The notes under the pieces are model-generated. The model was not told the origin of the DNA. It saw only the letters and a program-made list of their open reading frames with translations, and did not search any database. Both the position numbers and the translations under genes were made by a program. A stretch of DNA of 64,000 nucleotides from the NCBI RefSeq assembly GCF_004116495.1, contig NZ_PDKC01000005.1:1-64000 (forward strand). The letters run 5' to 3'. The DNA comes from Arcobacter sp. CECT 8985. Its GTDB lineage: Bacteria; Campylobacterota; Campylobacteria; Campylobacterales; Arcobacteraceae. Below, piece after piece: positions 34,443-62,434 of the stretch (the first letter of the stretch is position 1; every line of letters begins with the position of its first letter).

Positions 34443-34462
34443 TAAGGTATTCTTACTATTTT
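34436..34462. terminator. bidirectional terminator, ribD/chemoreceptor
   Basis: AAAATAGTAAG (34436-34446) and CTTACTATTTT (34452-34462) form an 11-bp stem with a 5-base loop. Both stop codons lie inside it: TAG of ribD at 34440-34442 and TAG of the receptor at 34456-34458. Confidence 0.85.
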
Positions 34463-36678
34463 CCAATAAACTCTTTTTCATTTACACTAGCTAATATTTT
34501 ATGTGCAATATTAGATGTTTTATGTGCAATATCTGTTGTATGTGTAGCCATAGTAGCATTTTCTTGAGTTTGTGCATCTAAGGTATTAATTGCATTGTTT
34601 ATTTGCTCTATACCAATTAATTGTTCTTTTGATGCATTTTCTATATCTTTAATAATATCTATGGTTTTTTGTAAATCAGAATTTAATTCTTCATACCCTT
34701 CAATCATTTCAATACTTATTTTTTTCCCATCATTTGCTTTAACTGTTGCTTTATCAACTAATTCTTTGATCTCTTTTGCAGCTTGAGCACTTCTGCTTGC
34801 AAGGTTTCTTACTTCTTGTGCTACAATTGCAAACCCTTTGCCAGCTTCTCCTGCTGTTGCTGCTTCAACTGCTGCATTTAATGATAAAATATTTGTTTGA
34901 AATGCAATTTGATCAATGATTGTAATTGCTTCAGCAATTGAATTAGTTTCATTATCTATTTCTTCCATAGAAGAAGTAGTTTTAGTAGCTAATTTTTCAC
35001 CTTTTGACGATGATTCTTTTAAAGAATTTGCAAAGTTAGACATTTTTATTATATTGTCTGTGTTGTTTCTAATATTTCCAGTTATCTGTTCTACTGCTGC
35101 AGATGTCTCTTCTAATGATGCTGCTGCGTTAGAAGAAGAACTGTTTAGATTATCCACGTATTTAAGTAAATTATTTGAAGATTCTTCTAACTGCATTCCA
35201 TCTTTTTTATTCTCAATTAGCATATTGTTAATTAAATCAATTACACTATTTAAAGCATATGATATTTTACCATTGTTATCTGATATCTTATTTGTAAAAT
35301 CATTTTTTGATAACTTATCTAATACTTCTAAAATAATATTTGTATTTTTACCTACATTTTTTGAGAGTACTTCTAGCATTTCATTGAAACTATTTCTTAA
35401 TTTTTCTAGACTCTCATCATTCATTTTAGTATCAAGTCTTTTTACTAAATAACCTTTTTTTATCTCATTAACAATTTTTTCTACATCACCTAAAAAGTTT
35501 TTTCTTTTTTCTAATTTAATTTTTGTTTTATTAATATTATCATTTATAATTCTTGACATATTACCAATTTCATCTTTACTATTATTAGTTAATAGTTTAA
35601 CTTCAGTTGTTTCATTATTTAAAAATTTAAAAAACGTTATTAATCCTGTTTGAAAAGAGTTAAGTTCTTTTTTTATATATTTTGAAACAAAATATGAAAT
35701 TATAAGTAGAATTATAATAGATAATATTGCAATCGTTATTGTTAGATATCTGATGATATTTTTTATATTGTTAACTGCAGATGCATAACTTGATTCAATT
35801 TTTTTATTCATATCTGTTAAATATATACCAGTAATTATAACCCAATTCCATTGTTTGAATTTTTTACCTATTGCTAATTTCTCATTTAATTGTTTTGTTT
35901 TAGGATTAAAAAATACATATGGTACATATGTTATATCACTGTTATTATTTTCCAAATTATCAAGTATCTGTTTTCTGTATGCTCTTCCTTTTTTATCTTT
36001 ATGTGTTAAATCCCACTGCTTACCAAATCTTTTAAATTTTGAACCATCAACTACATACCATGCACTTTTATCTTTTTTTACTTCAACACCATAAAAGTAA
36101 CCATTACCAAGAAATTTCAAGTTTGATAAAACATTAGCAGCACTTTTTTTATAACTATTTTGAATATCATTTAAAAATGCTTTTAGATATATAGTTATAT
36201 TCATTTTACTAAAATAGAAAGATTTTATAATTTGTAAATCATCTTTTTTTGTTTTAGAATTATAAGTAGTATTTTCACTATTTATAATATTATTCCCTTT
36301 TTTTATTACAACGTTTTTATTTGCTGTAACTGAGTTATTTAATAATTTTTCTAATTGGTTTAATGAAATAGAATTGTTAATTAAATAAAATTTATTTAGA
36401 TTTGATTTTAAATTATTTAGATTTTCATTTAGTTCATTCTCTATTGCAGATTTTGTACTCTTTTTTAAATATGAGTCAATTGATGTTTGAGCTAATTGTG
36501 TATATGCTTTAAGCTCTTCTTTTGCTGTTTGATTTACTAGCTTTGTAAAATCATTTTTTTGATACTGTGCTAATTTTTTAAATTCAATTGCCATAATAAT
36601 GACAGAAATTAAAAATGTTAAAACAATAGATATTGTAACTATAGAAAGTATTTTATTTTTAATTGATAAGTTCCTCAT
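34456..36678 (-). CDS. methyl-accepting chemotaxis protein with a Cache sensor
   Basis: The 740-residue protein has membrane segments at about 12-31 and 311-333, with a periplasmic region of about 280 residues between them. Its second half (about 180-290), with [20 protein letters not shown] and [11 protein letters not shown], is a Cache-type sensor domain. The cytoplasmic part has a HAMP-like linker, a long coiled coil and the signalling hairpin at 589-635 ([20 protein letters not shown], then [20 protein letters not shown]). The ligand is unknown. No CheR-tethering pentapeptide ends the protein. A TATAAT and AAAGGAG precede the ATG. Confidence 0.93.
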
Positions 36679-55197: not shown

Positions 55198-56238
55198 TTA
55201 ATGAATATCTCTCCATTTACTAGCTTTCCATAACCAAGCAAAGATAGCAAAAATTACTAAGTAGATTAGGAATTTAGGTCCTAATTCTTCTCTTTGTGCT
55301 TTTTTAGAGTCACCAACTTTTTCTAAATAAGAAATTACTTTCTCTTCAGAAGCTTTAGATAAACCAACTCTAGGCATTGCTGTACCTTCTAAGTGTTTTT
55401 GAGGATCATTAATAAATTCATGTAAATATTTTGCTCCTCTACTTCTAATGTATTGTGATAAATCTGGTGGAACTTTCCCCATATATGCTTTAATATTTTC
55501 AGCAGGAGTATGAGCAGACATTGTTCCGCCTTTCATGTCACCATATTTTATACCATGACATCTTTGACAAGCATCTTGGAACACTTGTTTATCTGTCATT
55601 TTATCTGGAGCAATTGATTGTAAATATGCTACCATATCTGCAATATCTTGTGGTTGCATCCAAGAATAAGAAGGCATTGGATGAACTCTTCCATCAACAA
55701 ATTTATGAGAAACTTTTTGACCTAATGTAGGTTCTTTAATAAATGCTACTAAATAATCTTTAGTGTATAGTTTACCAGAAGTACTTAAATCTGGTGGTAC
55801 TACACCATATGCAGCAGCTGAACTTGCATCATCCATTACCTGAGGGAATCCCTGAGATTTGATTGAGTGACAAGCAGTACAGTTTGATTGTACTAGTGTT
55901 GCACCATTAGTTGCATTACCTTTAAGTTTTAATGTTGCATTATTTGATTCCCAAAAAGAATCAATTCTTTTTTGAAATTTTACTGCAGCATCATACTCTT
56001 TTTTTGGAAGATGCGTAACTTTTTCATTTCCAGTTTTTTTAGCTTCAGCTTCAGCTTTTTCTAAAGCTTCTTTTTTCTCTTCAACTTTTTCTTTTGCACT
56101 TACTTTATCAGCTTGTTCAAAATTATAGTTTGCTGGATCCACATGAGGATGCATTTGTGAATGAGCAAATGGTTCAACACCCCAGTAAGTAATTAATGTT
56201 AATACAACTACTACTGCTAATATTTTTAATTCTCTCAT
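55198..56238 (-). CDS. petC: ubiquinol-cytochrome c reductase, dihaem cytochrome c1 subunit
   Basis: The 346-residue protein is the epsilon-type cytochrome c1 with two haem sites, CTACH at 120-124 and CQRCH at 224-228, where classical c1 has one. It has an N-terminal membrane helix (about 4-20), a K/E-rich stretch (about 45-80) and a C-terminal membrane anchor (about 322-338). Distal methionines may be in HPMPSYSWM and TAMPRVGL. It takes electrons from the Rieske protein to soluble c-type cytochromes. It overlaps petB by one base. Confidence 0.94.
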   Translation of the reverse strand: MRELKILAVVVVLTLITYWGVEPFAHSQMHPHVDPANYNFEQADKVSAKEKVEEKKEALEKAEAEAKKTGNEKVTHLPKKEYDAAVKFQKRIDSFWESNNATLKLKGNATNGATLVQSNCTACHSIKSQGFPQVMDDASSAAAYGVVPPDLSTSGKLYTKDYLVAFIKEPTLGQKVSHKFVDGRVHPMPSYSWMQPQDIADMVAYLQSIAPDKMTDKQVFQDACQRCHGIKYGDMKGGTMSAHTPAENIKAYMGKVPPDLSQYIRSRGAKYLHEFINDPQKHLEGTAMPRVGLSKASEEKVISYLEKVGDSKKAQREELGPKFLIYLVIFAIFAWLWKASKWRDIH

Positions 56239-57485
56239 TATGCACCTCTCTTTTTAGCATCAAGTTTTGTAATAACTGGTAATAAAATAAATAGTAAGAT
56301 AAATAGCGTAGCAGCTACAAATCCAACCCATGCATTAGCACCTGTTGGAGGTAATTTACCCCAAATAGTTAATACAATTAAATCAGCCATTAATATCCAG
56401 AACCATATAAAGAAACCAGGTCTTTTATGTGCTGGTAAAATTTCTGTGTCTCTATCTAAGAATGGTAATAATAGGAAAATAGCATTTGCAAAACCAAATG
56501 CAGCAAGACCAATATCAAAGGCTTTCATAGGACCAATATCAAAGAAGAAACCTCTTAATACTTCGTATGACCATAAGAAATACCACTCAGGATAAATATG
56601 TGCAGGAGTTGCCATATTATCTGCTGGATCAAAGTTTACTGGATCCATAGCAAAATCAAAGTGGAAGAATACTAAGTAAAAATAGAAAATTAAGAAAATC
56701 CCAAGAACAGCTAAATCTTTAGAGATAAATACTGGCCAGAAAGGAATAACTTTTGATTCTTTTTTATTACCACTTAAATATTTTTCAGCTTCTGCATCAA
56801 AATCAATTTCTTCAGAATTTTGATTATTAACATGTGGAACTCTTAGTGAATAAAAGTGTACTGCAATTAATGCCATTATAACAATAGGTAATAAGAAAAC
56901 ATGTAACATAAAAAATCTTGTTAATGTAGCATCTGCAACGTTAAAGTCACCTCTAATCCAAATAACTAATGAATCACCGATGAATGGAATACCACCAAAA
57001 AGGTTTGTAATAACCATTGCAGCCCAGTAAGACATTTGTCCCCATGGTAACATATATCCAGAGAATCCAGCAGCACTAAATACAACAAATAGTAACATAC
57101 CAGAAATCCAAATCATTTCTCTACCTTGTTTATAAGAACCATAGTAAATACCAGTAAACATATGTATATAAATAATTAAAAATACTACTGATGCGGCAAC
57201 ACCATGCATATGTCTAAATAGCCAACCATATGCAACTTCTTGCATAATTGTATAGTTTACAGAATCAAATGCTAAATTAACATCTGGTTTGTAATACATC
57301 ATTAAAAAAATTCCTGAAATTACTAAAATACCAAATGTAGCAGCAAGTAAAACACCCATTGCCCATAAGAAGTTAATATCTTTTGGAATCCAATACTCAG
57401 TCATTAATACTTTGTTTAGTGTAGTAGTATTTAATCTTTGATCTAACCACTCACCAACAGAGTTTGCTTTAGTAAATTTTGCCAT
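56238..57485 (-). CDS. petB: ubiquinol-cytochrome c reductase, cytochrome b subunit
   Basis: The 415-residue protein carries the two haem b groups of the bc1 complex. Haem ligands are H94 with H195 and H108 with H210 (RHMHG, YIHMF, MLHVF, AVHFY). The quinol-oxidation motif PEWY is in IYPEWYFLW. About eight to nine membrane helices are visible. An extended C-terminal part is normal for long-form cytochrome b. It lies between petA and petC and shares the operon. Confidence 0.96.
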   Translation of the reverse strand: MAKFTKANSVGEWLDQRLNTTTLNKVLMTEYWIPKDINFLWAMGVLLAATFGILVISGIFLMMYYKPDVNLAFDSVNYTIMQEVAYGWLFRHMHGVAASVVFLIIYIHMFTGIYYGSYKQGREMIWISGMLLFVVFSAAGFSGYMLPWGQMSYWAAMVITNLFGGIPFIGDSLVIWIRGDFNVADATLTRFFMLHVFLLPIVIMALIAVHFYSLRVPHVNNQNSEEIDFDAEAEKYLSGNKKESKVIPFWPVFISKDLAVLGIFLIFYFYLVFFHFDFAMDPVNFDPADNMATPAHIYPEWYFLWSYEVLRGFFFDIGPMKAFDIGLAAFGFANAIFLLLPFLDRDTEILPAHKRPGFFIWFWILMADLIVLTIWGKLPPTGANAWVGFVAATLFILLFILLPVITKLDAKKRGA

Positions 57486-57496
57486 TGCTTAACTCC

Positions 57497-57997
57497 TTAT
57501 GCCTTCATCGCAGCAGCGATTTTCTTATATTCAGGACCATCTTCACCTAGAACAATTTTTGTGCCTTTAAGACTAAATGGAGGTAAGTCAAGTGGTCTTG
57601 GTGGTGGACCAAAAATCTCTTCTCCACTAGCATTAAATTCACCACCGTGACATGGACATTTCCATTTTGTCTTTTTCCATGCAGGGATACATCCTAAGTG
57701 TGTACATAATCCAATAGCTATTGTATATCTATCATTATTAATTACTAAATCTCTTTTATTAGATTCCATATCAGCAGTTTTTTTTAGTACAAATACGGGT
57801 TTTCCTCTCCATACGATTGTACTTGGTTCACCAGCTTTTACTGTACTTAAATCAAATTCAGTAAATCCGCTAGATAATACACTTGGAAGTGGATCCCACG
57901 CTCTTTTCATACCAACTAAAGAGGCAGCTCCACCAACTGCAGCAACTGCAGCAAATGTATAACCAAGAAAATCTCGTCTATTTGTTTCGTTAGACAT
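57497..57997 (-). CDS. petA: ubiquinol-cytochrome c reductase, Rieske iron-sulphur subunit
   Basis: The 166-residue protein has a twin-arginine signal-anchor ([15 protein letters not shown]), so it is exported folded, and a Rieske domain with ligands C98, H100 (CTHLGC), C114 and H117 (CPCHGG). C103 and C116 form the conserved disulphide. It is the first gene of petABC and has a dedicated promoter with a symmetric operator-like site. Confidence 0.96.
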
Positions 57998-60597: not shown

Positions 60598-60618
60598 AGA
60601 AGTAGAAACTCTACTTCT
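60598..60618 (-). terminator. hairpin over the stop of the GGDEF gene
   Basis: AGAAGTAGA and TCTACTTCT form a 9-bp stem with a 3-base loop that includes the TAG stop at 60611-60613. No T tract follows on the minus strand, so it may be a 3'-end protecting hairpin rather than a terminator. Confidence 0.4.
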
Positions 60619-62434
60619 GTAATAGTTCTTTATTAAAAGCAATAACTTTATTTCTTCCTGTCTCTTTTGCTTCATATAAAGCAAGGTCTGCATATTTTAT
60701 ACAATCTTTTACATTATCAGAATCATATGGGAACATACTTGTTCCTATACTCATTGTTTTTGAAATTGTAGTATTTCCTGCAGGAATTTTTTTAAGGGCA
60801 AAAGCCTCTTTTATTTTGTGTGCTAATTCATTTACTGAATCTTTATCACAATTATATAGTAAAACAATAAACTCTTCTCCTCCATATCTTATAACAATAT
60901 CAGATTCTCTACAGTTTTCATTTAATGTTTCTGCTACTATTTTTATTGCATTATCTCCAACATCATGGCCATAAGTATCATTTACTTTTTTGAATAAGTC
61001 AATATCTACCATTAAAATACCATATGGAATATTAGCTCTATTTGCTTGTGCAACAATTTTAGAAATAGAATCTTCTAAATACTTCCTATTATAAAGACCA
61101 GTTAATGGATCAGTTCTTGCATTTAATTCTAATATATTCATCAATTTTTTACTCACAATTACTGTTTTTGCTGTGTCAATATAATCTTTGATATATGGAA
61201 TTAATTCTCTTACTCTTTTAGTCTCTTCTTCTGTTTGTGTGTAAATTGATACAACTAAGTCTACTTCATTTGATATTGAATATGGAATACAAAAATAGTT
61301 TATATCATTGCATTTGCTACAAATTGTACAAACATTTTTAAATTGTGTGGAATCAATTACTGTATTTGTTCTATCAGCTCTGCATCCTTTTTCTAATATA
61401 TCACAATAAAGCTCTTTTTCTACATACACAGCTGTTATTTTATTATGAATTGTATCTGATTCAAAAAAGTTAAAATTAGTTAATCCTAGTTTTTCTTTAA
61501 ATACTTGAGCAAGTCTAGAATAAACCTCTTCTAATGTATCATCATACTCAATTGTTTTTCTAAATTTATAAACATCTGATAATCTATCAACAGTATTTTT
61601 TACATTTATTAAATGATCTTTTTCATCTTTACTATTTTCTGTTAAGAAAACAGATATTTTAGAGTCCATTGCATCTAATGAATTTTCTAATTTTTCTAAA
61701 AGACTATTAATCCATGAAGCTACATCTTTTGATTCTTTACCTTCTGGATTATCAACTCTTTGAGAATAATCACCATCTTGAGCTTTCCTCATAACTTTTT
61801 TTATCTCATCAAAAACATTTAAAAATGGTGAAATAAGCATATTAATTAAAAATATAATAATTATCATAAGTACAAGTGCAATTACTGCAGTATGTGCAAC
61901 AGTAGTAATACCTACTTCTTTTGAATCATCAATAGACATAGTAATAGTTATTGCACCTAATGTATCTCCCTCTTTTGCATTTGTATGGCATTGCATACAA
62001 TTAATTTTGCCATGGGAAGTTGCATTATATGGAATTGTGATTCTATAATGACTTTTAGAAAAGACATTTTCACTTATTACTCTTTTTAATTTTCCAGTTT
62101 TTAGGACCTCTTTATCTATTTCATCTCTTGCTATTTCATTATTAAATCCAATACCAAACATATCAACTACATCTTTGCCTCTACTTAACCAGATTTTATC
62201 AATATTAGGAAGATCTTCTAATTGGCTTAAAAATAGTTCTCTGTTTTCAATAACTCCTGTAACCATTTGGGAAGTTAAGGAGTGTTCTATTGTTTTTGCT
62301 AGTACATGAGCTTTGTCATCAATGTTTTTTACTCCATAATCTCTAAAGTTGTAAATTAAATTTACAATTAACAATACAAACATTGAAAAAGTTATAAAGA
62401 TTACTAGAAATATGATTTTATTTTTAGTTTGCAT
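60611..62434 (-). CDS. diguanylate cyclase with a periplasmic haem c sensor and a cysteine-rich GAF-like domain
   Basis: The 607-residue protein has membrane helices at about 7-29 and 176-202, enclosing a periplasmic domain of about 145 residues with one haem c site, CMQCH at 146-150. A HAMP-like linker (about 203-255) leads to a GAF-like domain (about 290-420) with six cysteines: C344, C351, C369, C372, C375 and C382. The C-terminal GGDEF domain has an intact active site GGEEF (518-522) and an inhibitory I-site RESD (509-512), so it should make c-di-GMP and be feedback regulated. The input is probably redox or gas. GGGGAA lies 8 bases upstream of the ATG. Confidence 0.9.
   Translation of the reverse strand: MQTKNKIIFLVIFITFSMFVLLIVNLIYNFRDYGVKNIDDKAHVLAKTIEHSLTSQMVTGVIENRELFLSQLEDLPNIDKIWLSRGKDVVDMFGIGFNNEIARDEIDKEVLKTGKLKRVISENVFSKSHYRITIPYNATSHGKINCMQCHTNAKEGDTLGAITITMSIDDSKEVGITTVAHTAVIALVLMIIIIFLINMLISPFLNVFDEIKKVMRKAQDGDYSQRVDNPEGKESKDVASWINSLLEKLENSLDAMDSKISVFLTENSKDEKDHLINVKNTVDRLSDVYKFRKTIEYDDTLEEVYSRLAQVFKEKLGLTNFNFFESDTIHNKITAVYVEKELYCDILEKGCRADRTNTVIDSTQFKNVCTICSKCNDINYFCIPYSISNEVDLVVSIYTQTEEETKRVRELIPYIKDYIDTAKTVIVSKKLMNILELNARTDPLTGLYNRKYLEDSISKIVAQANRANIPYGILMVDIDLFKKVNDTYGHDVGDNAIKIVAETLNENCRESDIVIRYGGEEFIVLLYNCDKDSVNELAHKIKEAFALKKIPAGNTTISKTMSIGTSMFPYDSDNVKDCIKYADLALYEAKETGRNKVIAFNKELLQK

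Follow-up and report, generated by a model that had tools for sequence, protein, structure and literature searches.

The window analysed here, a 64,000-nucleotide stretch of DNA from Arcobacter sp. CECT 8985, encodes a 607-amino-acid protein that, judged by domain and signature, is predicted to be a membrane diguanylate cyclase with an intact GGEEF and to carry two sensor modules. Its periplasmic haem half probably belongs to a known type, the recently described sCache_heme sensors. The cytoplasmic half, a GAF domain with conserved cysteines (Cys-GAF) that form a putative metal or redox site, appears to have no description in the open literature that was searched; it is this half that merits bench work. 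The initial annotation of this gene rests on a real observation, in which the cysteine set was mis-sized and the rarity of its pairing with haem was overestimated.

Re-reading the sequence recovered the open reading frame, the CMQCH, the six listed cysteines, the RESD and the GGEEF as first described. The gene and its parts are as follows.

60611..62434, reverse strand: diguanylate cyclase gene, ATG start, 607 aa; TM1, sCache_heme, TM2, HAMP-like, Cys-GAF, GGDEF
62354..62419, reverse strand: TM1, residues ~6-27, a hydrophobic stretch in the sequence (long helix 3-59 in the model; limits approximate)
61901..62353, reverse strand: predicted periplasmic haem c sensor domain, residues 28-178, sCache_heme-like by profile match to 3b42
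62264..62266, reverse strand: Met57, predicted distal haem ligand by alignment with Met60 of GSU0935
61985..61999, reverse strand: CMQCH, residues 146-150, predicted covalent haem c site from the sequence, with His150 as proximal ligand
61832..61900, reverse strand: TM2, residues ~179-201, a hydrophobic stretch (helix 169-219 in the model; limits approximate)
61649..61837, reverse strand: HAMP-like linker, residues ~200-262, two helices in the model (169-219 and 233-261)
61127..61588, reverse strand: Cys-GAF domain, residues 283-436, from the predicted fold
61403..61405, reverse strand: C344, fourth core cysteine
61382..61384, reverse strand: C351, core cysteine, within the CRAxRT motif
61328..61330, reverse strand: C369, core cysteine
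61319..61321, reverse strand: C372, lineage-variable
61310..61312, reverse strand: C375, in some lineages only, from alignment counts
61289..61291, reverse strand: C382, core cysteine that opens a central GAF strand (379-386 in the model)
60647..61117, reverse strand: GGDEF domain, residues 440-596 (PF00990, E 3.6e-47)
60899..60910, reverse strand: RESD, residues 509-512, inhibitory I-site (RxxD) in the sequence
60869..60883, reverse strand: GGEEF, residues 518-522, active-site signature in the sequence

GGDEF is the sole confident Pfam domain of the protein, scoring 160.6 bits against a cut-off of 23.8, and its signature has the GG[DE]EF form, in agreement with the intact cyclase output proposed at the outset. 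HAMP gave no Pfam match in the 607-aa protein; with E values up to 0.1 allowed, 7 of the 73 homologues showed one. The cysteines of the protein are, in full, residues 146, 149, 344, 351, 369, 372, 375, 382, 508, 529 and 578. Relatives were collected at E <= 1e-60 from a class sample of 397 genomes, and alignments were built from 97 relatives plus the query (98 rows), from 73 diverse relatives (A1) and from 48 (A3).

For the haem domain, the best PDB entry for a profile of residues 28 to 178 was GSU0935 (3b42), with a weak E-value of 0.0057; the alignment nonetheless spans nearly the whole domain, end to end, with the CXXCH in register. Because the E-value is weak, homology to the GSU0935 sensor is likely rather than proven. 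In this alignment His150 and Met57 fall on His144 and Met60 of GSU0935, Met57 lying on chain index 26 of 3b42, 84 residues back from the haem histidine (index 110). Met60 is a reversible distal haem ligand in GSU0935 (PMC8396549). The CMQCH site is invariant in alignment A3 (48/48) and Met57 is kept in 47 of these 48 homologues, while across the 98 aligned rows the cysteines and histidine of the haem site are 97% conserved. All but two of 73 family members cover the domain (71/73), the exceptions being the Campylobacter-like rows L176 and L177. As in sCache_heme (Tll0287-like) proteins, the CXXCH sits between TM1 and TM2. PF11845 (DUF3365/Tll0287) had no match in the 607-aa protein; at a limit of E 0.1 it matched five of the 73 homologues, the best with 0.0046, and PF21563 matched six; we filed the domain as sCache_heme-like, not as a member of PF11845. 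A 2026 preprint defines the sCache_heme group, reports its enrichment in Campylobacterota and its fusion to GGDEF/EAL among others, and describes NO binding for one signalling-type domain (PMC12889525). The 3b42 alignment, the position of Met57 on Met60 and this published group, enriched in Campylobacterota, are the reasons for placing the haem half within a known kind, with its haem ligation predicted. The periplasmic haem c input first read from the sequence is thus supported as being of sCache_heme type.

The cytoplasmic cysteine domain is predicted to have a GAF fold. The model of residues 283 to 436 is confident (pLDDT 95.5), and GAF structures fill its top fold matches in the PDB, the best being 5hl6 (Z 12.9, rmsd 3.1 over 145 residues), followed by the GAFs of free-methionine-(R)-sulfoxide reductase (fRMsr), PDE and phytochrome, which upholds the earlier proposal of a GAF-like domain separate from the haem input. 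A fold search with the whole protein returned a list filled by GGDEF structures, and a PDB sequence search with the cysteine domain gave chance matches only. The Pfam GAF models had no match over cut-off in the 607-aa protein; among the distant homologues, L240 reaches 24.9 bits with PF01590, above its cut-off of 22.4. In the model, strands 332-338 and 379-386 are joined by a long stretch that contains two short helices, and the cysteines lie in this stretch and at the start of the second strand. GAF domains commonly hold cofactors in that region.

Six cysteines do lie within 39 residues, with the spacing C344-x6-C351-x17-C369-x2-C372-x2-C375-x6-C382. At the cysteine content of the window proteins (0.97%, 16,865 residues), 0.034 such stretches are expected by chance, and of 44 window proteins checked the diguanylate cyclase alone reached six. 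Conservation points to a smaller set. C351, C369 and C382 are each found in 98% of the 98 aligned rows, as is R352, with R355 at 96% and S362 at 97%; C344 stands at 83% by column, a figure that rises when shifts in the alignment are taken into account. We counted 141 Cys-bearing domains, defined by C351, C369 and C382, from Campylobacterota, Desulfobacterota, Nitrospirota, one planctomycete and gammaproteobacteria (the parsing is less secure for a few of the distant rows). A C344-like cysteine is present in 120 of the 141, and C372 is present in 13 of the 21 domains that lack it, including 12 of 13 such Campylobacterota rows. Absence of C344 predicts presence of C372 (Fisher p 0.0003 over all rows, kinship uncorrected), a count of rows rather than events that reflects about two independent lineages, mainly one family plus L211. 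At least four cysteines occur in 134 of the domains and the three core cysteines only in the other seven. This pattern suggests that the conserved site is made of 3+1 cysteines, the four core positions being spaced C-x6-C-x17-C-x12-C and the fourth ligand coming from either side (C344 or C372). The six-cysteine cluster of the initial annotation is therefore present and spaced as described, but what is conserved is C351, C369 and C382 plus C344 or C372; six cysteines as a conserved unit are ruled out, C375 being lineage-specific and C372 lineage-variable or in the place of C344.

The family is widespread in the class, with at least one relative, usually full length and nearly always carrying both haem and cysteine motifs, in 131 of the 397 sampled genomes. 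A second copy (37% identity) is present in the window's own genome. The pairing of haem and cysteines, first thought unusual, is thus common here and also extends to Nitrospirota (L257-L259) and a gammaproteobacterium (L039). The two motifs coincide in most Campylobacterota, although each also occurs without the other, so that the co-occurrence suggested as a check holds only in part. Cysteines alone are found in the Campylobacter-like L176 and L177, in Desulfobacterota-type L209 and L214-L235 and in Nitrospirota L251-L256; haem alone, with GGDEF kept, in L151, L247, L248 and L250; and neither in L246 and L249. Haem and cysteines are hence separable modules, and all four combinations occur. 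Seven domains lack the cysteine core, namely that of the planctomycete L212 and six in one clade of the tree. This starred clade (97) lost all cysteines together, four members having kept haem and two having lost it. One of them, L151, still follows glmS, like orthologues elsewhere, and the cysteine loss therefore happened in place.

When sampled relatives are assigned to the phylum of the sampling centre, the cysteine domain occurs in 26 of 198 genomes from the phylum of a Desulfobulbaceae MAG, in 12 of 118 around the Nitrospirota centre and in 1 of 229 around the gammaproteobacterial centre. Inputs other than haem also precede it, among them dCache_3, CBS plus PAS, and N-terminal regions that lack annotation and lie ahead of HAMP. 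That unrelated inputs come before it in Desulfobacterota, Nitrospirota and gammaproteobacteria marks the Cys-GAF as a functional unit. GGDEF is present in 146 of the 148 domain-bearing proteins, the remaining two ending at contig edges, and 122 of the 148 have RxxD-x5-GG[DE]EF. In L242, which resembles the haem-plus-cysteine set, one strand carries both the haem domain and the Cys-GAF-GGDEF part but in different reading frames, which may represent a frameshift or a real split.

We propose, giving it an even chance, that two independent inputs, haem c (redox or NO) and a cytoplasmic four-ligand cysteine site, gate one cyclase, the two sensor modules being arranged in series. Outside the membrane, a Cache-fold domain would hold covalent haem c, with His150 and, reversibly, Met57 as ligands. 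By analogy with GSU0935, Met57 would be bound in the reduced haem and released on oxidation or NO binding, and its displacement would shift the helix running into TM1. Inside, C351, C369 and C382 plus C344, with C372 substituting where C344 is missing, would form a site, most likely for an Fe-S cluster or another metal, that senses the redox or iron state of the cytoplasm. Both inputs would act through helix 402-440, which joins GAF and GGDEF, on GGEEF dimerisation, and RESD would give product inhibition. The architecture, the conservation, the modularity and the prediction of a GAF fold are what the analysis shows; metal binding, the kind of metal, the closeness of the cysteines, the direction of the response, haem ligation and signal integration are what we infer. 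The genome does not support a relevance of NO, as profiles of NrfA (control worked) and NosZ (control not working) had no match.

An Fe-S cluster is our first choice for the cysteine site because the four-ligand pattern is conserved, the carriers are anaerobic or microaerobic in habit, and Fe-S clusters have precedents in the GAF-containing regulators VnfA and Chloroplast Sensor Kinase. No known Fe-S motif fits the Cys-GAF spacing, the seven domains with three core cysteines only count against a cluster, and conservation of these residues would equally be expected with zinc or a thiol switch. In the thiol-switch reading, which needs no metal, C351 and C369, together with C382 or C344, would form disulfides under oxidative stress and gate the cyclase, comparable to the GAF-pocket cysteines of fRMsr. 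Structures of fRMsr are among the closest folds (1vhm and 3mmh, Z 12.5; 3ksf, 11.9), c-di-GMP enzymes under disulfide-based control are known, although the domains concerned are periplasmic (PdeC, HmsC), and the three-cysteine subset would be compatible with it. However, four-fold conservation and the C344/C372 interchange fit a four-ligand site better, and many carriers are of Desulfobacterota type, generally anaerobic lineages in which a peroxide switch is less expected. In a profile comparison of the cysteine domain with E. coli MsrC, the cysteine region was unaligned, an outcome that weighs neither for nor against a link to fRMsr. Overall, we consider a thiol switch unlikely. Structural zinc, whereby the cysteines merely stiffen a loop over the GAF pocket while the GAF itself responds to an organic ligand or to nothing at all, would be consistent with four conserved cysteines separated by variable insertions and with loss of the whole loop in proteins that survive. 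The near-invariant arginine beside C351 in CRAxRT and the core cysteine that starts the central strand suggest more than a loop clip, and we regard this explanation as improbable. That the haem sensor alone matters, with the cysteine domain serving as a passive linker of inherited, functionless conservation, is very improbable. The clade of L151, L247, L248 and L250 does keep haem and GGDEF without cysteines, but three cysteines are 98% conserved and Campylobacter-like and Desulfobacterota-type proteins keep the cysteine domain without haem.

Gene neighbourhood was rejected as a functional clue, given that argB-thrC neighbours are conserved in near genera only, and the glmS or glnD-like genes that lie alongside in other families seem to be common housekeeping genes. 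The cyclase gene lies directly downstream of glmS in many Campylobacterota families (L120, L128, L130, L038, L151, L176), often with a glnD-like nucleotidyltransferase nearby, and in L130 the reading frames of glmS and the cyclase run into each other. This adjacency possibly links c-di-GMP control to amino-sugar supply. In one genus (L136, L137, L152, L163, L166), two paralogous haem-cysteine cyclases lie side by side and convergent (first forward, second reverse). Two genes downstream of the cyclase in the window (55198-57997, reverse strand), a bc1-type complex is encoded (Rieske protein, cytochrome b and a cytochrome c with two CXXCH); the organism therefore makes c-type haem proteins. A chemoreceptor (34456-36678, reverse strand) has aerotaxis transducer Aer2 as its best NCBIfam match, below cut-off.

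The molecule c-di-GMP is the bacterial "settle down" signal, and most of the signals that a bacterium's many diguanylate cyclases read are not known. An Fe-S cluster at the cysteine site would be a new route by which the iron or redox state of the cytoplasm acts on biofilm signalling in redox-boundary lineages. Natural proteins with haem only, cysteines only, both or neither make the contribution of each sensor directly testable. Somewhat more tentatively than for the two-input mechanism, we suggest that the Cys-GAF founds a family of Fe-S or other-metal GAF domains dedicated to diguanylate cyclases and common to Campylobacterota, Desulfobacterota, Nitrospirota and some gammaproteobacteria, the haem branch of which would read redox on both sides of the membrane.

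Our search of the open literature (subscription journals were outside its scope) found no paper on the Cys-GAF described here or on any Fe-S diguanylate cyclase. A 2022 review of c-di-GMP sensing, in which every light-sensing GAF enzyme is bilin-binding, contains neither "iron-sulfur" nor "Fe-S" and no Fe-S enzyme. Redox, gas or metal input to c-di-GMP is shared with DgcZ (CZB zinc), globin diguanylate cyclases, hemerythrin and PdeC (CSS), none of them described with a Cys-GAF. VnfA, Chloroplast Sensor Kinase/Hik2 and AirS (N-terminal cysteine cluster) are likewise cytoplasmic regulators in which conserved cysteines are proposed or shown to hold Fe-S, but they have AAA+ or histidine kinase outputs and other cysteine spacing (the AirS motif, C-x7-C-x-C-x17-C, differs from the Cys-GAF core), and no sequence relation was found. 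The sCache_heme structures GSU0935 (3b42) and GSU0582 (3b47) have the periplasmic Cache fold that is predicted here, with one CXXCH between TM helices and a HAMP-like relay; the output is MCP there and GGDEF here, where the Cys-GAF is inserted. GSU2622 (HAMP/GAF/HD-GYP, c-type haem motif) similarly unites a haem motif, a GAF domain and a c-di-GMP-type output in one chain, but that output is HD-GYP.
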